Shown here: in pieces, positions 4,101 to 22,374 of the stretch
How positions within the stretch are numbered: position 1 is the first letter of the stretch
Layout of the letters: each line of letters begins with the position of its first letter
Virus record (IMG/VR): IMGVR_UViG_3300009537_000175
Coordinates: 1 to 24,102 of that record
DNA from: a virus
DNA length: 24,102 bases
Strand: one strand, 5' to 3'
Made by a program: the position numbers and the translations under genes
The notes under the pieces: model-generated
Databases searched by the model: none
What the model saw: only the letters and a program-made list of their open reading frames with translations
Told to the model about the DNA's origin: nothing

Positions 4101-5092
4101 TCTTTGTGAGGGCGCGTAAACCCATGAAGGAAATCCTTAGCGTATTCCTTAATATGGTCAACCATCCCTTCGCGGACAATGCCGCTTTTGGCCTTTTGTA
4201 TGCGTCCCTCTACTTCGCTATCTAGCTTGATGAAACTTGGCGGTGCCTTTTCCGGAGAGATGGTTACATGACCGGCCTGTCCTACGGTCTTTTCCTGTTG
4301 AGTCTTCTCCGCAAGTCGTTCTGCCAGCTTTTGGTCTATGCCAGGCGTGGCAGGTTTTTCAGTCGGCTTTACTGTCTCAACTTTATCCTTTACCTCCGCT
4401 ACAGCCTGCTGGATAGCTTCAGGGCTTTCAGGCAATTTCCCTCCCGCCGCTTTCGTGTTTGCAGTCAATTTATTGACAGTATTCCTCGCCAGCATGGAAC
4501 CTATACCAGATTCTACAAGGCCGGTGAATAATGCCATCTGTGCGGCATTAAAGGCCGTTTCCTGTAATGTTTCAGCGGGCATCAGTGCGCCGAATTGTGC
4601 GCCTTTCGTCATCGTCTGGGGAATCCGTTTCGCGTAAGTCTCAAATTCCTTACCAATCCCTTTCTTCCCGAATATCCGCATCCCGCCGTATTTGGCTACC
4701 CCCTCGCCTAACATTTTCAGTTTGCCGGATGGCAGTAACATGAACTCTCCTATATCGGCTATTACCTTTGCCGTTGTCGCCGCTCCCGCCGCTATATTTG
4801 GATGCTGTGCGCCGAACTCTGATTTGACAATCTTTTGGGGAATATACTCTTTTGCGGCCTCTACACCATGTTGCGCCGTCTGTAGAACCTCGAAGGGGTT
4901 TGTAACCTCTCCCATTCCTATCGGTTTCGGGCCGGTGTATTCAGGCCGTTCAATGGGTTTGTTAAGGTCAACACGCAAGTCGCTTGCCGAAGGCTGGTTA
5001 TCAAATGGAATGAAACCTTTTTTAGGCGATATATCCTCTAATGGAATAAAGCTGTTTTGTTTCTTTTCGGTTTCAAGAGCTATGAACGGCAT
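1094..5092 (-). CDS. Giant internal virion / ejection-type protein
   Basis: 1332 aa, the longest gene, last in the late operon. ATG directly follows the upstream TAA (TAAATG) with only a weak GGGAAA leader. Residues 1-60 are low-complexity and Pro-rich. About residues 90-210 contain Ala/Gly-rich, possibly membrane-active segments. The middle is long and helical. Around residues 925-980 there is a segment (VAYNMVSSSGKAL, then FPFFSFQEGN) that resembles the LPD38-type domain of large phage polyvalent proteins. No lysozyme, transglycosylase or protease motif is evident. Position at the end of the structural operon, size and composition fit an internal protein ejected with DNA, as in T7-like and N4-like podoviruses. 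Structural role is inferred from context; confidence in a coding gene is very high. Confidence 0.8.
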   Translation of the reverse strand: MPFIALETEKKQNSFIPLEDISPKKGFIPFDNQPSASDLRVDLNKPIERPEYTGPKPIGMGEVTNPFEVLQTAQHGVEAAKEYIPQKIVKSEFGAQHPNIAAGAATTAKVIADIGEFMLLPSGKLKMLGEGVAKYGGMRIFGKKGIGKEFETYAKRIPQTMTKGAQFGALMPAETLQETAFNAAQMALFTGLVESGIGSMLARNTVNKLTANTKAAGGKLPESPEAIQQAVAEVKDKVETVKPTEKPATPGIDQKLAERLAEKTQQEKTVGQAGHVTISPEKAPPSFIKLDSEVEGRIQKAKSGIVREGMVDHIKEYAKDFLHGFTRPHKDLPYDTRFAITNFEIARMGSARQRGARSASENLQAIVGNYGTAEADLFAKKLLIEDAIESVAVSKTRGEKVKLGFGFTEENLPRFKKTIDSELAKRPDVAQDVGLYYEKHQSLSKQYVDAFKDLGVDLSDNFAREKYLRHQILAYAEKTNLSGGGKGLKTKVWRNFLKRRYGSEHDYNTNVVQPIYEVWAQMETDIRWAQSMKLIKDTEDVIPALKKEISKRRVNTIKGIYARGQFIDEAYNLGLEDSAKRLFQISSEKTKMFKEGTVKDSDIIRLDNEIADITTEISVKLNQYRNMLKDKTLRASEEKRMEAWQEARRGDKDLPDEAFAPNIDVFSRPVTDYQQSLLKGEIKPHTLTPEGYRAVSVRDVYYRAKAIGEDMADLLIKDMLEQSNLTSREVKDVIARTDPDIWVIPEEVAKTFDEMTVKVDSNIVTKGIRGTTRGWKKYILFAPHRAFPFIANNTIGDTSYMLGAIHKSMLSVNAFKRKYASTALGELFSVAKGKKPSSQLREFLEMGGEDVGISVQEVGHVQDHPRFKGFRNETAIERIMLLPKWYMDRVFQLNTLTETARRYTLYKYYLDELKAGKTHYGSSKREFIDGLPKVEQKAFVLANDDMVAYNMVSSSGKALRDTLFPFFSFQEGNIKRFFHRTRNIYLSEKEASKIVSKLLPHLAKSGVKVASKTTVKAALFYVKMAWLMAGLSAYNRLFHPEEEEALSEDRKSRPHIITSGKDGKVTYRDTYDSLYELVNWVGLDEFPRHAKDYINGKASMKDIMTDMAYSPINKTANMISPIIKTPAELYAGKSTFPDIRRGFTIRDTGEALASVVALRPEYRAARGLPQESYSTERVKGITGFKTVDVLEGAYRDIRSAVSKYNERRGRPVQTFTVSDKGKALYNYKLALRYKNKEQADKFLKQYYEYGGSEKGMMRSLDTLHPLSGIAKKDRDAFTKTLTPRERDKLNKALKYYNDVLRQGMYPQKQTKQGFPNIKEEARKRIGVLDAFK

Positions 5093-5950
5093 TTATTTTC
5101 CCGTCCAGATACCCTTGCGCCCCTGCTTATCCGTCACGACTGGATATAGCACCCCATCCGGTCCCTTTTCCTTTTCGCCGGTGTATTTATAACCATCCCC
5201 TTCTGCCGAAAGGATAAGCTCATTCATTCTGCTAATTTCTTTCTGTTTTGCTTTCTCGTCCGCCTTTTCCTTTTCTTGAATATCCAGTCTCCTGCTGGCC
5301 GGCGTAGGAGGTTTATACTCAGCTGGTTTAGGTTGTGACGTATTCAATATGGACATTGCGCTGGTTGGTTGAACCCCTGCCTGAACCAAGTCTGCCACAA
5401 GCCCCATTCTTTCACTTTGTGGTGTCGGGCCGGTTGGCCCCTGCAACTCCCCAGGCAACGGTTCACTTTGCATGGTCATCGACCTGTCTCTTAATACACC
5501 GGCGACACGGCCTCCGGTAGCTTCCCTTTCCTGTTGCTTTTGCGTAGCCATGTGCTGCTTTTTCATAAGGTCAAGGGACGCTTTCTCGCCCGCAGTCAAA
5601 GACCCGCTTAACTCTCCTATGAGCGCACTGAATAACGTAGTATCCTTGTCACTTAGAGCTTTGCCTAACGCTTTAAACGTGTCCTTGTTATCCTCAAAGT
5701 CCTGCGCCGTTACCATTGGGAACTCACCAAGTTGCCCCTGTTTGGCGAACCTCGGAATCTGGTTGAGATACTTGACACTGCTTTCAATCTTCATCCCTGG
5801 GGTGGCCGCCATTTTCAGTAACATCTCTACCGTTCTGACGGAGTTCTGTCTCGCCTCCCTTTCCTCAAGCATTTTGTTCTGTAAGCCCATCTCCATGCCG
5901 CGCGCGATCCCCGCTCCGAGACCGCTTAAAAGTCCAACATTGCTAGGCAT
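5093..5950 (-). CDS. Probable internal virion/ejection protein
   Basis: 285 aa. ATG is preceded by a good ribosome binding site (GGAGGTAATAA) and overlaps the upstream stop by 8 bases. The N-terminus (LLSGLGAGIARGMEMGLQNK) is a Gly-rich amphipathic stretch followed by charged helices; the region near 160-230 is Pro/Gln-rich, and residues 225-245 are a Lys/Glu/Gln coiled coil. The C-terminus is short and Gly-rich. Such N-termini with Gly-rich helix plus coiled coil are typical of podovirus ejection proteins. No enzymatic motif is visible. The position between the S74 protein and the 1332-aa protein supports a virion role. Confidence 0.65.
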   Translation of the reverse strand: MPSNVGLLSGLGAGIARGMEMGLQNKMLEEREARQNSVRTVEMLLKMAATPGMKIESSVKYLNQIPRFAKQGQLGEFPMVTAQDFEDNKDTFKALGKALSDKDTTLFSALIGELSGSLTAGEKASLDLMKKQHMATQKQQEREATGGRVAGVLRDRSMTMQSEPLPGELQGPTGPTPQSERMGLVADLVQAGVQPTSAMSILNTSQPKPAEYKPPTPASRRLDIQEKEKADEKAKQKEISRMNELILSAEGDGYKYTGEKEKGPDGVLYPVVTDKQGRKGIWTGK

Positions 5951-7496
5951 TTATTACCTCCGCATCTTTATACATATCAATCTTTTCCGTTATATGTTGT
6001 GGCAATCGGTCATACATAATACCCTCTATTTCGCCGTTATCATTTTTAAATACGGCATCCGGCCTTATCTTGGCGGTTTCTTCGGCAATCATGCCAGTGT
6101 CCTTTTTCCCCGATTCTTTCCATACAAACGAAACGATACGAAGCCCTGTTTTAGGGTCAATTTCCAGTGTCTCTATATTCTTTTTGTATCGCCTTGATGA
6201 CATTAGCCATTTTGTACCCGCAAGTCCTACTCCTGTCCCAACACCGCTCATTAACTGGTCAAAACCGCTGGGTTGCATGCTACTGTGGTAATCATATCCC
6301 ATTTGAGCAAGCTGTTTGTCATATTCGAACTTCTTTTCCATAAGGTCGCTCTGGATATACGGCTGTGTGGCACTTGCAACGCTACCTCCCAGCACACCCA
6401 CCCCTTGATTGGCGTTCTGAGTCCCCGCATGTTGTAACACTCCAATTCCTTCACCTATGGCGTTCGTTACGCCCGGTGTCGAGGGCTGTTGAGGGTTGGC
6501 TAGAATATTAAGGTTGCGCAATCTCCTGCCCTGCAAGTCTGACGACAACGCCGTTGACTGGCTTAATAAACTCAACCCCTGATTTATCTCGCCCCTTCTT
6601 TCGGCATCTAAAGCCAGCGTCCATGTCTGCTGGAATTCCCCTAACGCCTGCGCCGCAGGGGTCGAGAACCCTATCGCCGTGTCTGGGCTGTCACCCATAA
6701 TGGCGTGGCCTTTACGGGCAAGGTTTTCCTTCAACTGAGTGAACTCGTCTCTCTGCCGTTTGAGAGTCCCTTCGCTTATAGCACCTTCGCCCCTTAACGC
6801 CTTTTCAGCCCTGTCAGCCTGTAAAAGAGCTATATCGTTGTACCTTTCCTCTACTTCCGATATGGGTTGTTTGAGGTATTCGCCTATATGCCCCTGAGCC
6901 GCCATAGCCTGCGTGAGGCGGGTTTTTTCTATCTCTTCCTGACTGGCACCTATCTCATTCAGAAAATCAAGCCTGTCGCCGAGTAATCCCTGATACTTCT
7001 GCTGTAAATCCGCATTGGTCTGCTGAATATCCTGTAACTGCTGTATCTGTTCGGGAGTCTTAGAGGCGATCTGCATAAGCTGGTTGCCAAGCGTCTCCGC
7101 TTGGTTTATCTGCCATGCCGTGTGGTCGCCCACCAAATCGAGGTACTCTATCTGAAACTGTTCTATGGCATCCTGCGTGAGTTCCTTCGTGTCTTTCGTG
7201 TTGTCCATGAAATCGGAGTTCTGGAGCTTGTCTATCTGGTCTTGTAACTCGGAACGCACATCGACCACAGATTGAAGCTGGCCTTCACTTACTTGGTCAT
7301 ATATCGTTGCCGGATGGTCAAGTACCGTAGTTTCGCCTGTTGCTTGGTCATAGTAAGTATATTGCGATGGCGGAGCGTTCTCTAGTTGTCCCTGTAATGA
7401 CTGTATTTGCGCCTCCAGCGCATCGCGTTGCTCCTGTATATCCTGCGACTGCCCTTCGGCTATGAGGTCTGATACGCTGGTTATTGTGTTAGGCAT
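5943..7496 (-). CDS. Coiled-coil virion protein with C-terminal S74 chaperone domain
   Basis: 517 aa, started by ATG after a strong AGGAGGGA site. Residues 1-300 are Gln/Glu/Leu-rich coiled coil. Residues 300-430 are Gly/Gln/Ser-rich with a Gly-rich segment (GVGTGVGLAG). Residues about 432-517 match the Peptidase_S74 intramolecular chaperone: SSRRYKKNI (canonical SDxRxKxxI, with Ser in place of Asp), a VSFVWK strand, GMIAEE, and a final IMYDRLPQHITEKI helix. S74 domains normally trimerise a fibre or spike and then cut themselves off. Here the host protein is not an evident fibre and lies among the ejection-type genes. It may be a trimeric coiled-coil appendage or a scaffold for neighbouring proteins. 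Confidence 0.8.
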   Translation of the reverse strand: MPNTITSVSDLIAEGQSQDIQEQRDALEAQIQSLQGQLENAPPSQYTYYDQATGETTVLDHPATIYDQVSEGQLQSVVDVRSELQDQIDKLQNSDFMDNTKDTKELTQDAIEQFQIEYLDLVGDHTAWQINQAETLGNQLMQIASKTPEQIQQLQDIQQTNADLQQKYQGLLGDRLDFLNEIGASQEEIEKTRLTQAMAAQGHIGEYLKQPISEVEERYNDIALLQADRAEKALRGEGAISEGTLKRQRDEFTQLKENLARKGHAIMGDSPDTAIGFSTPAAQALGEFQQTWTLALDAERRGEINQGLSLLSQSTALSSDLQGRRLRNLNILANPQQPSTPGVTNAIGEGIGVLQHAGTQNANQGVGVLGGSVASATQPYIQSDLMEKKFEYDKQLAQMGYDYHSSMQPSGFDQLMSGVGTGVGLAGTKWLMSSRRYKKNIETLEIDPKTGLRIVSFVWKESGKKDTGMIAEETAKIRPDAVFKNDNGEIEGIMYDRLPQHITEKIDMYKDAEVINA

Positions 7497-11723: not shown

Positions 11724-12688
11724 TTTTCTTTCCAGTTCAAATAATGTTTTTCGATAAGTTTATACATGGCCTCCGGCTTTATCGCCGCCATGCACACTGG
11801 AGAACCGGTCGTTTCGTTTTTCTCGCACGCTTCCCAGCTATATATAAGTTTATGGCAGGGGGAACATTCGACATCCCCTCGTACCGTGTCGCAATTTTTA
11901 AAATGTTTCGTAAGGTTTTCTTCCGAACTGTGGGACAACATCGCTATCTTCGGAGTGTCGAAGCACCCCGCCGCGTTAAGTATCCCCGTTTCAGGGGCTA
12001 CCACAAGGTCCGCGTACTGAGTCATTATGAGCGACCGCCATAAATCCCATTCCCCGCAATAGTTCTTGGTTTGGGGATGCTTCCATTCTATTACCTGCTC
12101 CACTATCCCGCCTACCGTTACCATAACTATGTCTGGAAAAGCGTTTTGTATCGCAACCGCCACATATTCGGCGTATGGGTAAGTCTTGTGAGGAGATGAC
12201 CCCGATAAAGACCATAAGATTAAAAATCTGTTTGAATACCTCGCCTTGAAGTTTTGCGCCCAGCTATGTTCATACTTCGAGAAAAACAGCTCCCCTCTAT
12301 ACCCCTTTTCGTCAGGATACCCGCCGAGTTCCATAGTCCTGTCGTAATAGTTTACGTTGAACTTCTCATGTCTTTCTTCATGTGACAGGTCGAAATTCTC
12401 CTGCCCTTCGACGGCAAGCAACCCTTCTTCAATACTTCCCGAAAGGTTTATGAACCTGTCGTACCCTTTTTTTAATTCCTCCCAATGTTCGTGCAGTTTC
12501 TCGTTAGGGATGGATTCATCATGGAACATGAACTCATCGACGTAAGGATTGCGCCTCACTATCGGGTAAGGGTCTTTGTGCATATTCAAGGTAACGTGGT
12601 AGCCGTCTTCCTTTAGTTTGCGAAGCAGCGGCGTAATCATCACTAAATCACCCAACGCCCCGTACCTGACGACTATAACCTTCTTCAT
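11702..12688 (-). CDS. GT9 family glycosyltransferase (heptosyltransferase-like), second copy
   Basis: 328 aa, ATG overlapping the methyltransferase stop by 4 bases. The N-terminus VVRYGALGDLVMITPLLRKL is the glycine-loop start of ADP-heptose:LPS heptosyltransferases (GT-B fold). Other family-like elements are SPHKTYPY near residue 165 and APETGILNAAGC near 231 (canonical D-T-G-x-x-H-x-A-A-x). A Cys cluster ECSPCHK (residues 274-280), with later C288 and C299, is shared with the paralogue upstream. The donor and acceptor are unknown. In bacteria the family adds heptose to LPS core; here the gene sits in a virion operon, so the acceptor might be a capsid or tail protein, or host surface sugar. 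Confidence 0.8.
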   Translation of the reverse strand: MKKVIVVRYGALGDLVMITPLLRKLKEDGYHVTLNMHKDPYPIVRRNPYVDEFMFHDESIPNEKLHEHWEELKKGYDRFINLSGSIEEGLLAVEGQENFDLSHEERHEKFNVNYYDRTMELGGYPDEKGYRGELFFSKYEHSWAQNFKARYSNRFLILWSLSGSSPHKTYPYAEYVAVAIQNAFPDIVMVTVGGIVEQVIEWKHPQTKNYCGEWDLWRSLIMTQYADLVVAPETGILNAAGCFDTPKIAMLSHSSEENLTKHFKNCDTVRGDVECSPCHKLIYSWEACEKNETTGSPVCMAAIKPEAMYKLIEKHYLNWKEKWQSQAM

Positions 12689-13230
12689 CGGCGTTTTGCC
12701 ACTACCGTAATTATATGTTGCGGTTTATCGGGGTTTCGTATAGCCCCTTCCTCGTAATTGTATTCAAGAACCTCATATCCAAGCCTTGCCAGAAGTCCCG
12801 TAAGACTGTTCAGCCCGAAGTACCATAAGTGCTCATCAGGTCTGTAATGCTTCCAGTCTTCTATCTCCCATTGGCCTATAGCCTCTACATTGGGAGTGGA
12901 TATGAACAGATATTCGGGACGAAAAGTGTTTATCGGTTCGGCAGGGTCTTCAAGGTGTTCGATAACGTCCCACATTGTGAGGATTTCTATGTCTTCCAGC
13001 GGGGGGATCATGTACCCGCAATGGGGATTCACGTCATATCCGTAAGTCTCAAACCCGTTCGTGCTGGATTTATGGAACGCCCCAGGGCCGCATCCGTAAT
13101 CAAGCAACGTCATGTTTCCGTGGCAATATTTTTCCACAAGCTCCCATCTTGAGCGGTAAATCCTTTTCCCCGTCTCGGATTCGGCGCGTTCTTTATACCG
13201 TTTGTAATACGCTTCGTTGTATATGTTCAC
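12685..13230 (-). CDS. Class I SAM-dependent methyltransferase
   Basis: 181 aa from a GTG start at 13230, preceded by AAAGAG; a TTG at 13245 would add five residues. There is no ATG. Motif I is clear (LLDYGCGPG, residues 42-50), followed by YDVNPH and the DVIEHLEDP element typical of Methyltransf_23-type small-molecule or sugar methyltransferases. The gene lies between two GT9 glycosyltransferases, overlapping the first by 38 bases and the second by 4 bases, so all three should be made together. O-methylation of a sugar or glycan is the obvious context inference. DNA methylation is unlikely, as no target-recognition region or DPPY-type motif is seen. Confidence 0.85.
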   Translation of the reverse strand: MNIYNEAYYKRYKERAESETGKRIYRSRWELVEKYCHGNMTLLDYGCGPGAFHKSSTNGFETYGYDVNPHCGYMIPPLEDIEILTMWDVIEHLEDPAEPINTFRPEYLFISTPNVEAIGQWEIEDWKHYRPDEHLWYFGLNSLTGLLARLGYEVLEYNYEEGAIRNPDKPQHIITVVAKRR

Positions 13231-14236
13231 TTTCAACTCTTTCAATCATGTTTTGTATATTGAACCTTGTTATGCAGGGAGGGATTATATCCTCATCGTA
13301 TTGAATCATGTTCCCGCAATCTTCCTGCGTGTATATGGCCTTGTGGCAAGGGGAGCACTCTATATCAGCCTGAACCGAGTAGTCGTTCTCGTGATACTTG
13401 ACCATCTGTTCAATGCCGGACGCGGTTGCCAACATCATCTTCGGCGTTCCCCACATTCCTGTGGCTACCATCAGCCCCGTCTCGCCTCCGATTACAAAAT
13501 CCATGAATTTCATCATTAAGGCGGCCTGTTTGAGCGGAACTGTCCCGAACATGGGAATTACGTTGTCGTGCCTGAATTCGTCAACCTCATCCTTTAGGTA
13601 ATCAAGCGAACTGTCGCCCATAAGGTAGATTTTTATATCGTCAAACTTTTCCCGTAACTGCTTGACGAGGGTTGGGTAGTAGGGGAATACTTTGTGAGAG
13701 CAGGTTCCCGCTACCGCTATGGCCACAAGAAAACCGTCCTGTCTGTCGGCCCACGCGCCAACGATGTTCTGTTGTTCATCGCTGAAATACAATGAATCAA
13801 TACCACGGAGAGACCAGCCGACTTCTACATCCGATAACGGTATCTCACATCTTTCCAACACAGCTTCATAAAAGTTCTTCCCGCCGAAATGCTCCTGCCT
13901 TTCCTTTGTGGAAGCCGTGAATATCTCCTGATGTCTGGCGGCTATGCACTCGACTTCAAGCGTTCCGTCAAGGTCGATAACTCGGTCGGGCTTGATAGTT
14001 TCCTTGAGCTTTTCCAACCGTTCCTTAATAACTTCTTCATGCTTCGTCAACGGTATCTTTTCATATTCCATAACCGTTATCTGTTTGAAGCGCGGGTCGT
14101 CATGAAACAGCCCATACCCCTTCGCCGTCGTCTCAAGGTAAACCTCGTACCTGTCACAAAGGACATTAAGAGCGGGAAGGCAATACAACCAATCCCCGAA
14201 CGCACGATAACCAATCAATAACAGTTTACGTTTCAT
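13193..14236 (-). CDS. GT9 family glycosyltransferase (heptosyltransferase-like), first copy
   Basis: 347 aa from the ATG at 14236. An upstream in-frame start at 14293 would lie inside the terminator hairpin and add Gly/Arg-rich residues, so it is rejected. The N-terminus LLLIGYRAFGDWLYCLPAL matches the GT9 first loop. Further elements are CSHKVFPYYP (residues 179-188), GGETGLMVATG (250-260) and ECSPCHK (293-299), each aligning with the second copy, so the two are paralogues. No Shine-Dalgarno site precedes ATG; the sequence upstream is the T-tract of a terminator. Expression may therefore be low and depend on read-through. Substrate unknown. Confidence 0.8.
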   Translation of the reverse strand: MKRKLLLIGYRAFGDWLYCLPALNVLCDRYEVYLETTAKGYGLFHDDPRFKQITVMEYEKIPLTKHEEVIKERLEKLKETIKPDRVIDLDGTLEVECIAARHQEIFTASTKERQEHFGGKNFYEAVLERCEIPLSDVEVGWSLRGIDSLYFSDEQQNIVGAWADRQDGFLVAIAVAGTCSHKVFPYYPTLVKQLREKFDDIKIYLMGDSSLDYLKDEVDEFRHDNVIPMFGTVPLKQAALMMKFMDFVIGGETGLMVATGMWGTPKMMLATASGIEQMVKYHENDYSVQADIECSPCHKAIYTQEDCGNMIQYDEDIIPPCITRFNIQNMIERVESEHIQRSVLQTV

Positions 14237-16556: not shown

Positions 16557-16901
16557 CTATCCTCCTACCGCACTTTCCGGGTGCGTACCGTTAACCGGAC
16601 TTTGCGCGTCCGTAACGCCTAAAAAACCTTCGCTCGCCGCCCGCGCGACAAGTTCCGGGCCTTCCTGCTTTATATTACTTATGAAATTAGGAAACAACTC
16701 CGTTAAAAACCTGTACACAAACTGCAACCTCTGTATCTCCATAGTATTCTCGGCTGGAGTATGCAACAGCTTATCCTTCTCTCTTTCAGCCATTTGCGCG
16801 AACGTTTCCATAATCAACTTGAACCCTTTGGTCTCTATGGTGTCAATTATATCGGCGCAAAAGAGGATTCTGTCTTCAAGTATTATTTTTGTATCTTTCA
16901 C
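16557..16901 (-). CDS. Small head-module protein, unknown function
   Basis: 114 aa from GTG at 16901, which overlaps the portal stop (GTGA); an AGAGG lies close upstream. It is 2 bases from the scaffold start codon. The protein is helical with several charged segments (KLIMETFAQMAEREKDKLL, LQFVYRFLTELFPNF) and a Gly/Ser/Ala-rich tail. I do not recognise it. The position between portal and scaffold is often occupied by small head proteins or protease-like genes; no protease motif is seen here. Confidence 0.7.
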   Translation of the reverse strand: MKDTKIILEDRILFCADIIDTIETKGFKLIMETFAQMAEREKDKLLHTPAENTMEIQRLQFVYRFLTELFPNFISNIKQEGPELVARAASEGFLGVTDAQSPVNGTHPESAVGG

Positions 16902-18664
16902 GCGCCGCCTCTATTGATATCGACGACATTATCCATTTCGCCGTTTTTAAGCTGTCCGGCGGCCTGCCCCGCCAGAGCCTGGTTCTGCGGGCCTTGTGCA
17001 GGTTCATTAACCGTTATCACGAAATCCTTTATATTCTTCATCCCCAGAAGCCGCATAAGTTCGTCTTCAAAAGCGGCAGGGTTATACAGTTTCACCCCGT
17101 TAGGCGGCATGGCCCCCGACTGTAAAAGCTGTATCTGGCTCTGGTTCGCCATCATGGCTTTCTCCATCGCCATTAGCAATTTCCTTAAATCCTGGTCTTT
17201 ATCGAACTCGCTTCTCCCTACCTTCAACGTAAGGTCGAGTTCCAAGTCGGCGAAATCGTCCACATCGGCCAGTAGCGGCAAAGTCTGTTCCCCGAACTTC
17301 ATGGGGTTCTTTCGTTTGAAACTATCGTTGGCGATTCTCATTACCCGCTCACTTGTCTCAAACTTGTTAATCTGCCATAAAAGCTCATGGTAAAACGGTT
17401 TCATGTACGTTTCCGCTACAATCGCCGTGAAAAGACTTATCTTCACATCGGAGTTTTGTTCATTAATCCTCGCTACGGTAGCCTTCTGGTTGGCACTGCC
17501 AAGCCCCTGCTTCCCCGGTGTAACCCCCGACAGCTCCTGCATCATGGCCTCGTCGCTGGCGGCTTCTATATAGGCGTTCTGGGTAACGTCCGGCATCCTC
17601 CTGTCCACAATAGCGTTCATGTCGTCCGTAAGCGTTATCCCCGCAGGTCTGGAGTTAACCAGACTATCCAAATCCACGTTACCGAACCTCGATACGACCG
17701 TCATCGGGTTGAGCACAAGGGAAACATTATCTTTCCTTTGGTTCAACGTGGTGGTAAAAGACTCGTTCGGGCCTTCTAGAATCTCAGGGAACCCCGTTCC
17801 TATGGCCTTATGGGGGTCAAACAAACATTGTCCGAACATCAAGGGGTAATGGTCGTAAACCGACTCTTCCGGCTCCCTTAACTCAACCTCGGCCTCGTTG
17901 CTGTACCCAAGCCATACCTTCCCGTCTTTTTTGTAAAACGTCTCGTATACGGCATAAAAGTTTTTCGCAGTCTCGGCATCGGTAGTCCCGTCTTTCCCTG
18001 GAGACGGATACTCATTTTCCCCATACGTCCCTGGGTCGCCGGTGCCTTGATGCCTCACATTCCTTAGAACTTCATTCTTGATGGACGAAGGACGGGCTTT
18101 ATCGATGTTTTTGAACCCCATCTCCTTCATTTCCTCCATCGTCATGTAATTGACGAGGATTACATACCGCATCTTTTCCTTATAAACCCCGTTCCAGTCG
18201 GCAAACACCTGTTCGTTGGGATAAAGCGTGTATTCAGGATGGTCTTTATTCCACCATAGTTTCCCTACCCCCAACCCCAAATCGGCTATATTTTTAAACG
18301 CCGACAGATGTTTTAACGCCAGAGAATCGCGGCGGTTCAAGCGGTCTATATGATATAAGGCGACCTCCTCCAGAACCTTCGCCCTGTGGAAATCATCCTC
18401 GGTTCTCCCCCCCAAATCAAACGGCTCCATCTCCGACAGGAACGTGCGGTGCAAATCCGACACAATCCTCCATGTGATGGCCTCAATCTTTCTATAATTT
18501 ATCTTCGCCCTGTTTCTCGTCTTGCTCCATGTGTTCTCGTGAGGCTCGAATATCCCCTTTATAATCCTTAGATTCTTCGCCCATCTCTGGTCGTACATGG
18601 AACGGTCGTTGGCGGATCTGGACTTCCACCTCTCGACATCCAATAAAAACTGTGTTTTGTCCAT
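16898..18664 (-). CDS. Portal protein
   Basis: 588 aa, ATG overlapping the TerL stop by one base (TGATG). The N-terminus has YDQRWAKNLRIIKG and TRNRAKINYRKIEAITWRIV, typical of podovirus portal proteins of the P22-like type. The central region has GFPEILEGPNE and LNQRKDNVSLVLNPM elements. Near residues 360-390 a SGVTPGKQGLGSANQKATVARINEQ segment matches the portal stem/tunnel-loop region. The C-terminus holds a Gln/Asn-rich stretch. It should form the 12-fold ring through which TerL packages DNA. Order terL - portal - scaffold - capsid supports the assignment. Confidence 0.85.
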   Translation of the reverse strand: MDKTQFLLDVERWKSRSANDRSMYDQRWAKNLRIIKGIFEPHENTWSKTRNRAKINYRKIEAITWRIVSDLHRTFLSEMEPFDLGGRTEDDFHRAKVLEEVALYHIDRLNRRDSLALKHLSAFKNIADLGLGVGKLWWNKDHPEYTLYPNEQVFADWNGVYKEKMRYVILVNYMTMEEMKEMGFKNIDKARPSSIKNEVLRNVRHQGTGDPGTYGENEYPSPGKDGTTDAETAKNFYAVYETFYKKDGKVWLGYSNEAEVELREPEESVYDHYPLMFGQCLFDPHKAIGTGFPEILEGPNESFTTTLNQRKDNVSLVLNPMTVVSRFGNVDLDSLVNSRPAGITLTDDMNAIVDRRMPDVTQNAYIEAASDEAMMQELSGVTPGKQGLGSANQKATVARINEQNSDVKISLFTAIVAETYMKPFYHELLWQINKFETSERVMRIANDSFKRKNPMKFGEQTLPLLADVDDFADLELDLTLKVGRSEFDKDQDLRKLLMAMEKAMMANQSQIQLLQSGAMPPNGVKLYNPAAFEDELMRLLGMKNIKDFVITVNEPAQGPQNQALAGQAAGQLKNGEMDNVVDINRGGA

Positions 18665-20652
18665 CAGTACGCCACCGCCGGAACTTCCGGTTTGTATTCA
18701 GGCAGTCTCTTGCCGTAATCTGGAGCCACATACCTTATCGGAAACTGGAATACATACCTCATGGCCGCATGGAAATGATGTTTACCTTCCAAAATCTTGT
18801 CCTTTTGTCCCTTTTTTTCCTCATTCAACGCGACATCCCTTTCCAGCGTCAACATGGAGTTGATCAACATACGGTTGTTGGGGGTATCAAATATGAAAAA
18901 GTTGGGTTTCCCCGTCTTCTCGTCAACCTTCAACCTCCTCTTAATCTCCTCGACCCCCGCGTCTATGGAACCAGGATACTTGATCGACTTCCTTAATCCG
19001 CGCATCCTGTTAGGGGACCTCCTTAAAGTGTCAAATATGTTCAACCCGCCGAACGCCTCAATTCTTACGTCCGAAGACTGGTCAACTACACTCCATCCCA
19101 TCCTCCAACGTTTTGTAATGGCGGATACGTCAGCCTTGACCTCCTCGATATCCCTCGCCTTGTCGCCCCAATAAGAATCCACCACATAAGGAATATTTTC
19201 GCGGTCAATCGCTACAAACACGACCGCAGTGGGAGTCGTCTGGTGGGGGTCCATCCCCGTCAATACCATATACTCGTCCGTAATAGGGAAAGGATCGATA
19301 ACATGCAGGCTCCGGCTGAAATGCTTATACACACGGCCGGAAAGAGATACAAACTCACCTAAAAGCCGCATCTTGACTTCCTCGTACGAACCGAGACCTG
19401 CGACAATATCTTCCAATACCTTCAAATTCGCATACCTGTTCGTTACAGATGACATCTTGAAACACTCGATGGAATTGCCGTCAATATCCTGTTTCCCCAA
19501 TATCTCGTCATTAACCCAGGTCATCCCCTTAGTGGGAGTCATCTCAAACAATATCCTCACTCTGCCGGCAGTAGTGAACCGCATCAGGTTCTCTTTATAT
19601 ATCTCATATAACGGTTCCTCATCATAAACCACCATGCCCCTCGGAGGGCCCTGAAAGCTCCCCACACTCTGCTTATTCGACATGAACTCTATAGTCCCGA
19701 ATAACTCACCCTTCTTCCCCAACCTCAAAATACTCTGCTCACTGGAAAAACTCTTCTCCCAACTCCCGTCAATCAAATACTCCCTCGGACACCACTCCCT
19801 GTACTTGGGGATAACATTCTTGAGCAACCCGTTCACATAATCCTCACCCACGACCCTTACATGAAAAGGACGGGGAACATCCAACTTCTCCTTCGGGTAT
19901 ACATCCCTAAGAGAATTAGGAACCTCACCCGTTACGGCAATAAACGACTCAAGAGCACCCGAAACACTCTTGCCGCTGTTATGGTGGATAACCCCACTTG
20001 CCAGATAATTATGGTATTTGGGAACCGTGAAATCATATTTGATGTCGCGGCGTTTATGCACTATACCGGTTATCACCAATTGAGGCGTAACCGTGGAGGA
20101 CGATAATGTGGAAGACTCCAGAAGGGAAATCCCGCATCTTAACGGCAACTCACTTAAAGAAAGGTAACCGTTCTCCGTCAAAACAACGTGATTCATCGAG
20201 GCCACAAAACTCTCCCCGTTAGATAACCCAAACTCATATAAATCGTCAACAGGTTTCGTAAAAGGTTTCTGGGCCTCCGCCGTAACCAAAAATTCCCCAT
20301 CCCACGCCAATACATGAAAATCTGAATCAATCTCACCAACAGGTCTATCAACACCCAAAACAGGGTCATATATCAACGTCTCACCACCTAAACACTGGTT
20401 ACCACCAAAACCACCCACAACATTAGCAGTACTCATATGAACATCCATCTGGCTGTCCAAACGCTCAGGAATGTCCTCAGGCAATATATGACGCCTCAAA
20501 AACTCCAAGTTCGCAGAAGGAACACTCCCGTCACTAGGAACATAAAACCAAAAAGGGTCACTCTGCTCCAATAACTTCTTCTGAACCAATAAATCCTTGT
20601 AACGCTCAACTAACTCGGCTTGAGTAACACCCTTCTTAGCTTTCTTAGCCAT
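18664..20652 (-). CDS. terL: Terminase large subunit, interrupted by an intein in the Walker A loop
   Basis: 662 aa precursor from the ATG at 20652 (an upstream TTG at 20682 is less likely). The mature extein would be 523 aa, a normal TerL length. The P-loop is split: GGNQ at residues 83-86, then 139 intein residues, then SGKS at 226-229, giving GGNQSGKS after splicing. Walker B is VVYDEE (about 341-346), followed by the coupling motif FEMTPTKG. The RNase H-like nuclease has LTGMDPH (D468) and VVDQSSD (D524). The third acidic site is replaced by a His-rich element (KHHFHAAMRY), where most relatives have Asp; this may affect metal binding. It cuts and pumps DNA with the small subunit and portal. 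Confidence 0.95.
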   Translation of the reverse strand: MAKKAKKGVTQAELVERYKDLLVQKKLLEQSDPFWFYVPSDGSVPSANLEFLRRHILPEDIPERLDSQMDVHMSTANVVGGFGGNQCLGGETLIYDPVLGVDRPVGEIDSDFHVLAWDGEFLVTAEAQKPFTKPVDDLYEFGLSNGESFVASMNHVVLTENGYLSLSELPLRCGISLLESSTLSSSTVTPQLVITGIVHKRRDIKYDFTVPKYHNYLASGVIHHNSGKSVSGALESFIAVTGEVPNSLRDVYPKEKLDVPRPFHVRVVGEDYVNGLLKNVIPKYREWCPREYLIDGSWEKSFSSEQSILRLGKKGELFGTIEFMSNKQSVGSFQGPPRGMVVYDEEPLYEIYKENLMRFTTAGRVRILFEMTPTKGMTWVNDEILGKQDIDGNSIECFKMSSVTNRYANLKVLEDIVAGLGSYEEVKMRLLGEFVSLSGRVYKHFSRSLHVIDPFPITDEYMVLTGMDPHQTTPTAVVFVAIDRENIPYVVDSYWGDKARDIEEVKADVSAITKRWRMGWSVVDQSSDVRIEAFGGLNIFDTLRRSPNRMRGLRKSIKYPGSIDAGVEEIKRRLKVDEKTGKPNFFIFDTPNNRMLINSMLTLERDVALNEEKKGQKDKILEGKHHFHAAMRYVFQFPIRYVAPDYGKRLPEYKPEVPAVAY
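19978..20394 (-). other. Mini-intein (139 aa) within the terminase large subunit
   Basis: The in-frame segment starts with Cys (block A, CLGGETLIYDP), has a block B-like element (ASMNHVVLTENGY, with Ser-Met-Asn-His where most inteins have Thr-x-x-His), a block F (KYDFTVPKYHNYLASG) and ends in HHN (block G) before a +1 Ser of the extein. At 139 aa it has no room for a LAGLIDADG or HNH homing endonuclease, so it is a mini-intein. Removing it restores a canonical Walker A loop. Nucleophiles are Cys1 and Ser+1, the cyclising Asn is residue 139, preceded by His138. Confirmed at DNA level: TGT for Cys at 20394-20392, AAC for Asn at 19980-19978, AGC for Ser. Confidence 0.95.
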
Positions 20653-20854
20653 ATATGTACTCAAGTACGTTAAATACACCAATATCAGGTCTCCACTCCG
20701 TGGGACGACCGCACTTTTGCACCGATATGCTGTACCGCAGTGACACGCTTTTTGTTTTTTGGAACGGGGAGAGGGGACTATATATATACCCCACGGGGCG
20801 TCCTTCCCCCCCGCCCCCTACCCTTCCATCAATAAAATCAACGCTTTGCGCCAT
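20645..20854 (-). CDS. Small ORF bridging terS and terL
   Basis: 69 aa. Its ATG overlaps the upstream stop as TAATG, with a GGGGGAATA leader, and its TAA lies inside the first codons of terL (8-base overlap). This fits a translationally coupled gene filling the spacer exactly. The sequence is odd: a Gly-rich N-terminal half encoded by the G/C-tract region, and a C-terminal part CGRPTEWRPDI then VLEYIYG that resembles the start of GRPTxYxP-type HTH proteins common in phage small terminases. It could be a real small protein, or a remnant of a second terminase-type HTH protein, or a fortuitous frame over a packaging site. Confidence 0.4.
   Translation of the reverse strand: MAQSVDFIDGRVGGGGEGRPVGYIYSPLSPFQKTKSVSLRYSISVQKCGRPTEWRPDIGVFNVLEYIYG
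20765..20822. repeat. G/C homopolymer tracts with a (TA)5 core; possible packaging site
   Basis: The terS-terL spacer holds GGGG runs, a 10-base alternating TA stretch (20779-20788) enclosed by GGGG and CCCC, an ACCCCACGGGG element, and a long C-rich tract (20802-20819). This is unlike all neighbouring sequence. Such structure near terS might be a cos or pac site, but no cut site can be located by eye. It might equally be only part of the 69-codon ORF. Confidence 0.35.
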
Positions 20855-21315
20855 TATTCCCCCGCTTCAATCAGCCGCTCAACTTGTTCTAGCTTAGCTT
20901 TGACATCACTATGCACGTCACGCACGTTCACGTTCATAGTCGATTCATTGTTGAGCAATCTTGCTTTATCAACACTGATCCCAGCTGCTGTTACCAACTG
21001 TAATGTAGACGCTTTATCCAGCTTATCTTGTTGATTTGCATAGTCTAAAAACATCGACGCATGCACAGTAAACTTGTCTGCTAGCTGCTCTTTTAGTCGT
21101 GTAGCTAGTAGTTTTGAACCTATCTTTTTTCCCCGCTTTACTTCAATAATAGTATGCTTTGAGCATTTTAATAACTTGCTGATTTTGTTGAGCGAATATC
21201 CCTGTTCTAGATATATCTCAATTAATGTGTGTCTCACTGTTCTGTTAGTGATAGTAGTGCAGTCAGTAGTGCTATTGACCGTCTCCCGGGGAATATCTAC
21301 CTCTATTTTTGGCAT
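20854..21315 (-). CDS. terS: Terminase small subunit candidate (HTH protein)
   Basis: 153 aa from ATG at 21315; a GGAG lies 11 bases upstream. A helix-turn-helix is visible at residues about 31-60 (LIEIYLEQGYSLNKISKLLK, then CSKHTIIEVKRG). Residues 64-120 are helical and resemble the oligomerisation core of phage small terminases, and residues 130-150 form a short C-terminal coil (VKAKLEQVERLIEAG). It is the first gene of the late operon, directly before terL, which makes a DNA-recognising terminase subunit the best reading. A transcription regulator with the same fold is the main alternative. The gene lies behind a strong -10 box. Confidence 0.65.
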   Translation of the reverse strand: MPKIEVDIPRETVNSTTDCTTITNRTVRHTLIEIYLEQGYSLNKISKLLKCSKHTIIEVKRGKKIGSKLLATRLKEQLADKFTVHASMFLDYANQQDKLDKASTLQLVTAAGISVDKARLLNNESTMNVNVRDVHSDVKAKLEQVERLIEAGE

Positions 21316-21428: not shown

Positions 21429-21466
21429 CATCGGTCATCGGTCATCGGTCATCGGTCATCGGTCAT
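21429..21466. repeat. Tandem 7-bp repeats (CATCGGT x5)
   Basis: Five perfect head-to-tail copies of CATCGGT occupy 21429-21463, followed by a partial CAT. The last copy runs into a palindromic GTCATGAC (21462-21469). The array sits in the non-coding divergent region, just upstream of the leftward -10 box. It may be a multi-site operator, a short replication iteron array, or slippage-prone microsatellite DNA. Confidence 0.9.
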
Positions 21467-22098: not shown

Positions 22099-22374
22099 AT
22101 GAAAATAGAAATTAAAAACAAGTTCACTAACGAAACAATTTACCAAGCGGAAGCTATATCGCTGAAAGATGCAGTTGAAAAAGCTATAAATGAAGGCGCA
22201 GATCTTCAGGGAGCAGATCTTCGAGGCATGAATCTTCAAGGCACGAATTTTCGTGGTGCGGATCTTCGGTATGCGGATCTTAATGGCACAAATTTGCGCG
22301 ATGCAGATCTTAGCTATGCAGACCTACGATATGTAAATCTTTGGGGTGCAAATCTGCATGGTGCAAAGCTCTAA
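22099..22374 (+). CDS. Pentapeptide-repeat protein
   Basis: 91 aa, ATG after AAAGGAAAA. Residues 1-33 form a beta/alpha head (IEIKNKFTNETIYQAEAIS then a short Ala/Glu helix). Residues 34-91 are about 11.5 tandem A(D/N)LxG/Y pentapeptides, which fold as a right-handed quadrilateral beta-helix. Phage proteins with this N-terminal head are common and of unknown role; some larger pentapeptide proteins mimic DNA and block gyrase. With under three full coils it is short for a gyrase inhibitor. It may bind another protein. Confidence 0.85.
   Translation: MKIEIKNKFTNETIYQAEAISLKDAVEKAINEGADLQGADLRGMNLQGTNFRGADLRYADLNGTNLRDADLSYADLRYVNLWGANLHGAKL

Follow-up and report, generated by a model that had tools for sequence, protein, structure and literature searches.

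To our knowledge, the homing endonuclease of the inteins known so far is a domain of the intein. The mycobacteriophage inteins TerL1-a to e and TerL6-f lie in the ATPase domain of the large terminase subunit TerL, most commonly in its Walker A loop, and for larger inteins the endonuclease is likewise described as an intein domain (PMC5050341). In the methylases of ShiLan-type phages, an out-of-frame HNH gene is hidden in an insertion that is kept open in the frame of the host gene (PMC11855218). Nuclear group I introns of Porphyra carry His-Cys homing endonuclease genes on the complementary strand (PMC2585584). A search of the openly accessible literature turned up no intein described as carrying an antisense endonuclease.

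Here, we analysed a 24,102-nucleotide stretch of viral DNA from IMG/VR (hereafter the window) that contains an interrupted terL gene. With high confidence, we regard the insert as a class 1 mini-intein in the Walker A motif of TerL that derives from a mobile intein family with an antisense HNH gene and retained the tail of this gene after deletion of the endonuclease.

The Walker A insert of TerL

The features of the locus are as follows.

20854 to 21315, minus strand: HTH protein, candidate small terminase, upstream of terL (Pfam HTH_38 below cutoff; phrog_4494)
18664 to 20652, minus strand: terL precursor gene with its ATG start at 20652, 662 aa, composed of an N-extein of 86 aa, an intein of 139 aa and a C-extein of 437 aa (translation; PHROG terminase large subunit; tblastn)
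20395 to 20406, minus strand: first half of Walker A, GGNQ (translation; intact loop of relatives)
19978 to 20394, minus strand: predicted class 1 mini-intein, Cys1 to Asn139, followed by a +1 Ser (profiles, alignment, predicted fold)
20392 to 20394, minus strand: Cys1, nucleophile of block A (the same in every sequence of the family alignment)
20188 to 20190, minus strand: His69, the block B histidine of S-M-N-H (invariant; with few exceptions, members have Ser or Thr at -3)
19978 to 20034, minus strand: block F/G, Asp121 ... His138-Asn139 (D121, N129, Y130 and N139 invariant)
19966 to 19977, minus strand: second half of Walker A, SGKS, with the +1 Ser nucleophile (translation; intact loop of relatives)
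16898 to 18664, minus strand: portal protein, SU10-like (PF23899 SU10_portal, 114.4 bits)

The insert, C...HHN, comprises residues 87 to 225 of the precursor, and its excision in silico yields a TerL of 523 aa with the Walker A motif rejoined as GGNQSGKS. In tblastn, this spliced sequence matches phage terminases, and PHROGs matches likewise point to terminase large subunits; identity in the exteins is low. The adjoining portal is SU10/P22-like, consistent with a podovirus-type head; the initial annotation had spoken of a podovirus-type TerL. Elsewhere in the window, a perfect 7-bp tandem repeat (CATCGGT, 5.4 copies, positions 21429-21466) lies in the non-coding DNA that precedes the HTH gene and terL, and tandem repeats of 15 and 45 bp are found at 22217-22319. 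A methyltransferase gene (12685-13245, minus strand; PF13489, 57 bits) is located within the virion gene cluster, and a tail fibre-like protein (5943-7496, minus strand) carries a C-terminal Peptidase_S74 chaperone domain.

The insert scores 22.4 bits against TIGR01443 (intein_Cterm), above the curated cutoff of 15.6, and matches Pfam Intein_splicing with E=3e-6 at 27.6 bits, below the curated cutoff of 35.8. Searched with phmmer, its residues 1-139 align end to end with Mtu RecA mini-intein structures (E=1.2e-5). An AlphaFold model built from 18 mini-inteins reached a pLDDT of 89.3, and its top Foldseek matches were all intein or Hint folds (best TM 0.76-0.85), led in the PDB by the Npu DnaB, Mtu RecA and Ssp DnaB inteins. 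Such a Hint fold is expected for class 1, as are the residues. Cys1 is invariant across the 18 aligned mini-inteins on which residue invariance was judged; it excludes a class 3 intein, which lacks Cys or Ser at position 1 and has a WCT triplet. The T-x-x-H of block B is represented by S-M-N-H with an invariant His, and the block F Asp (D121) is followed by the C-terminal HHN and then Ser. In all, C1, D10, H69, D121, H138, N139 and the +1 Ser are present, nearly all of them invariant in the family. Intein-free homologues with an unbroken host motif also exist: IMG/VR holds TerL relatives at 45-50% identity that lack the insert and keep the loop intact as GGNQSSKT or GSNQSAKT (L003-L013), and another TerL family contributes 120 intein-free alleles.

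By every feature examined, save the Pfam score below the curated cutoff, the insert is thus a class 1 mini-intein as far as its sequence can tell. Residues, TIGR01443, phmmer, predicted fold and intein-free relatives all agree with the initial proposal of a mini-intein that divides the Walker A loop. Judging from residues and fold, the intein would excise from the translated precursor via Cys1/His69/Asn139/Ser+1 chemistry and thereby restore GGNQSGKS. We consider it very unlikely that the insert has lost splicing and persists as an intein-like domain, with a TerL that works despite the insert or a dead gene: the catalytic residues are complete, the reading frame is open, and an unspliced insert would disrupt a P-loop that intein-free relatives keep whole. 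Two further points of the initial annotation did not hold up. The Ser in block B, described there as unusual, is not, because S-x-x-H is found in most relatives; and the allele, suggested to be possibly new, occupies a known site, because TerL inteins sit at the equivalent position in the cultured phages ME3, CP21/CP220, Lu11 and Erwinia SNUABM_46 as well as in dozens of uncultured phages.

Large relatives and their antisense HNH gene

A profile scan for the intein family detected 246 relatives, and 80 of them were retained. From the loci read, 92 inteins were parsed (66 distinct by DNA), nearly all in TerL P-loops, and later additions raised the set to 74 distinct inteins, 57 of them large. 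Many IMG/VR phages carry inteins of 280-326 aa at the same TerL P-loop site as the window, and more distant TerLs (L014, L018, L028, L029 and others) have inteins of 283-326 aa exactly at GGNR/C...HN/S[GS]K[ST], where slashes mark the intein boundaries. The window intein shares this insertion before S[GS]K[ST] and is related in sequence. Mini-inteins of 126-148 aa are present in many lineages. Neighbouring sites in the same P-loop are used as well. In L002, a close member of the TerL family, an intein of 302 aa (5247-6152) lies one residue further on than that of the window (/SKT), as does the one in L051 (1966-2361); the intein of L052 (from 3001) is placed three residues earlier (RG/SNRAGKT), and a P-loop intein in L046 (1033-1410) is followed by a +1 Cys. 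Scans of GTDB genomes for the intein family, and of cultured phages with the L061 and L063 inteins and L242 DNA, gave no match.

In each of the 57 distinct large inteins checked, the antisense strand carries an HNH homing-endonuclease gene that overlaps the middle of the intein. Its open frame of 174-291 codons always lies in the same relative frame, RC+2 (reverse complement +2). In five members scanned, HNH_3 was detected on the antisense strand at 40-44 bits (cutoff 24.8), and a profile of the endonuclease family matched the antisense strand in 53 of 53 distinct large inteins and the sense strand in none. PHROGs matches identify the antisense protein as an HNH endonuclease (E down to 1e-27), and the catalytic pattern E-x-V-H-H...N...N...H is invariant in eight aligned antisense proteins; a phmmer search of the HNH protein against the PDB gave no match. 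Read in the TerL frame, the middle of the large inteins contains no recognisable domain, and a LAGLIDADG or in-frame HNH endonuclease was sought there with Pfam and not found. Strong Shine-Dalgarno sequences precede several antisense starts, e.g., AAGGAGGTAATAG-ATG in L029 and AAAGGAGGTTTCAA-ATG in L061, while several other antisense genes have no obvious one. In L018 and L019 (both 5046-5975) and similar inteins of 310 aa, the open antisense frame extends deep into the part that encodes the splicing domain (sense nt 68-250), and part of blocks A-B may be dual-coding there.

In the RC+2 phase, sense codon position 2 is read as the wobble base on the antisense strand. Within the group of 295-aa inteins, the per-site differences for sense positions 1/2/3 amount to 0.070/0.047/0.385 in the splicing part and to 0.021/0.137/0.017 in the endonuclease core, a complete reversal. 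The groups of 310, 314 and 315 aa likewise vary most at position 2 in the core and, in the splicing part, at position 3. For the two largest groups, chi-square tests on the counts of variable sites give p values of 6e-15 and 1e-8. Read antisense, the endonuclease region has a mean dN of 0.019 and a mean dS of 0.244; read sense, the same region yields 0.072 and 0.029, respectively. Since substitutions are concentrated at the antisense wobble position, selection acts on the antisense protein, and the sense frame is merely kept open. Conservation is thus seen in the antisense protein and not in the overlapping sense peptide.

The openness of the sense frame is itself maintained against expectation. 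Synonymous recoding of the antisense gene introduced about 3-8 sense stops on average in most of 19 lineages, and the probability of an open sense frame after recoding was at most 0.003 in 17 of the 19. The four other alternative frames of the antisense genes contain 124-236 stops each in 3771 codons, compared to 0 in the TerL sense frame. In the AlphaFold model of the L029 intein, both Hint halves exceed a pLDDT of 90, and residues 95-246, the antisense-coding stretch, remain below 50. Long antisense open frames can arise by chance in some compositions, yet we give next to no credence to the idea that those seen here are not genes and merely follow from sense coding or composition. HNH_3 scores lie far above the cutoff, Shine-Dalgarno sites are present, the sense translation is disordered, and codon-position counts, dN and dS, and recoding rule out openness by chance or composition.

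Endonuclease loss and the relic in the window

The family is probably mobile. In one family of TerL, alleles with and without the intein are 81-97.6% identical in the nucleotide sequence of the extein, and inteins of 295, 310, 314, 315 and 132 aa all occur there. A scan with the endonuclease profile found 520 relatives; the best 80 of the 520 are all antisense to a long open frame, and at least 69 of these 80 were parsed as TerL P-loop inteins.

The two flanks (5.0 kb) of a 136-aa mini-intein (L062) and a 310-aa intein (L248) match at 99.5% and 100% identity. The two phages are set apart by one in-frame absence of 522 bp, through which L062 lacks the endonuclease except for its tail. At ~90% identity, the same in-frame difference is seen between L049 and L064. 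Counted over the well-supported branches of the intein tree, endonuclease presence or absence changes at least five times, and parsimony gives 12 changes; the tree alone cannot separate gain from loss. The endonuclease tail is left in five mini-inteins (L043, L044, L049, L050 and L062; 0 of 1000 recodings each), which argues for loss. About nine of the 16 mini-inteins tested show no clear relic, so that the case for deletion over gain does not extend to every mini-intein. In L320 (Lactobacillus phage CL2, 506-2590), TerL ends in the N-terminal half of an intein, followed by an HNH gene on the sense strand; this looks like a broken or fractured intein.

The window intein contains a comparable tail.

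20109 to 20219, plus strand: relic of the C-terminal tail of the antisense HNH endonuclease, WKTPEGKSRILTATHLKKGN..., with its stop at 20220 (tail profile; frame and position of full-length relatives)

The initial annotation had stated that the intein has no homing endonuclease. This is correct for the intein's own frame, but overlooked the HNH tail that is still readable on the opposite strand. An intact HNH gene in RC+2, the endonuclease that a mobile intein would contain, is absent from the window, and the plus strand holds only the tail in that frame. The relic is short; it shares the relative frame of the full-length endonuclease tails and lies within three bases of their place. Full-length endonucleases end in KWTPDGKARILTALR... 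(L063) and KWTPEGKARLLAAVE... (L029). Tested with the whole profile, the relic reached moderate significance (6 of 1000). A sharper, tail-only profile, which was chosen after this result had been seen, gave 11.7 bits for the window. The maximum among 20,000 synonymous recodings with an unaltered intein protein was 10.4 bits, and 0 of 20,000 scored as high as the window. As the tail scores above all recodings, the window mini-intein most likely is an endonuclease-deleted descendant. It is a derived, endonuclease-less relative of the antisense-HNH family and not a full member.

We also weighed the possibility of an ordinary mini-intein that never had an endonuclease, with the antisense HNH genes being independent insertions elsewhere and the relic a by-product of sense homology. 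The mini-inteins without clear relic, the moderate whole-profile result and the intein tree, which is poorly resolved around the window, leaves its nearest kin unplaced and supports its position weakly, are compatible with this explanation. Opposed to it are the tail score above every one of the sense-preserving recodings, the agreement of the relic with full-length relatives in frame and position, and the documented L062/L248 deletion, which leaves the same tail. We therefore judge it improbable and favour descent by deletion.

In the proposed scenario, the window intein derives from a mobile family of environmental phages that encodes its HNH homing endonuclease antisense across the central linker of the intein. 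In full-length members, the antisense protein is held by purifying selection, and the sense strand is kept free of stops for translation of the intein, its peptide forming a disordered linker. The endonuclease presumably cuts the P-loop DNA of intein-free terL, allowing the element to spread, a homing step that would go along with separate antisense expression. An in-frame deletion of the endonuclease gene would then give rise to a mini-intein, and the window copy most likely arose in this way.

Splicing-gated packaging, an idea of the initial annotation, is not needed to explain the window intein. The mini-intein could in principle be a domesticated switch whose conditional splicing times the onset of DNA packaging: inteins of some ATPases reportedly respond to stress (PMC6195587, PMC5790916), and loss of the endonuclease leaves an insert that is no longer selfish. 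The sequence, however, contains no signal of regulation, and near-identical phages with and without the endonuclease, together with closely related intein-free TerL alleles, are what a selfish element would produce. Such a switch is unlikely, and we retain the interpretation as a remnant of a mobile intein.

Comparison with known inteins and hidden endonuclease genes

Taken together, it is likely, at a confidence slightly below that for the window intein itself, that uncultured phages harbour an undescribed class of mobile inteins with an antisense homing endonuclease, of which the window is a natural loss product. If true, a stretch of 150-200 codons is read both ways, as an HNH enzyme on one strand and as a disordered intein linker on the other. 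Nuclease and splicer would be separate genes on opposite strands of shared DNA, uncoupling homing from splicing. Production of the endonuclease would then depend on neither the translation nor the splicing of TerL; an antisense transcript would be its probable source, so that it might already appear ahead of late gene expression. Antisense dual coding leaves a measurable signature, and it would explain why annotators obtain a long TerL with a meaningless linker. L062 and L248 provide a natural pair for endonuclease loss, a step of the proposed homing cycle, and the compact natural mini-inteins of ~126-139 aa are possible splicing tools.

With the Mtu RecA and Npu/Ssp DnaB mini-inteins (PDB 3ifj, 2in0, 4o1r, 1mi8), the window intein shares the Hint fold, Cys1, the block B His and the terminal His-Asn. 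It differs from them in its host protein TerL, in sequence (~26-28% identity) and in the antisense endonuclease relic it has kept; unlike them, its family is almost confined to TerL P-loops. Among TerL inteins, mycobacteriophage TerL1-a sits between the P-loop Lys and Thr, whereas the window insertion is three residues earlier (Q/SGKS). The inteins of mycobacteriophages BAKA and Bethlehem, the two tested, have an in-frame LAGLIDADG endonuclease and no antisense HNH. Those of ME3, CP21/CP220, Lu11 and Erwinia SNUABM_46 share the equivalent P-loop position, before [ST]xK[ST], but are distant in sequence, and an antisense HNH open reading frame was sought in the ME3, CP21, Lu11 and SNUABM_46 inteins and not found.

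The nearest precedents are the HNH gene of the ShiLan methylases and the Porphyra intron endonucleases. The ShiLan insertion is not an intein, whereas here the HNH gene is antisense and within a true intein. The Porphyra element is an RNA intron that does not require a sense open reading frame; the sense strand of an intein, in contrast, must be an open reading frame, and dual coding is therefore forced. The family thus departs from known mobile inteins in where its endonuclease is written.
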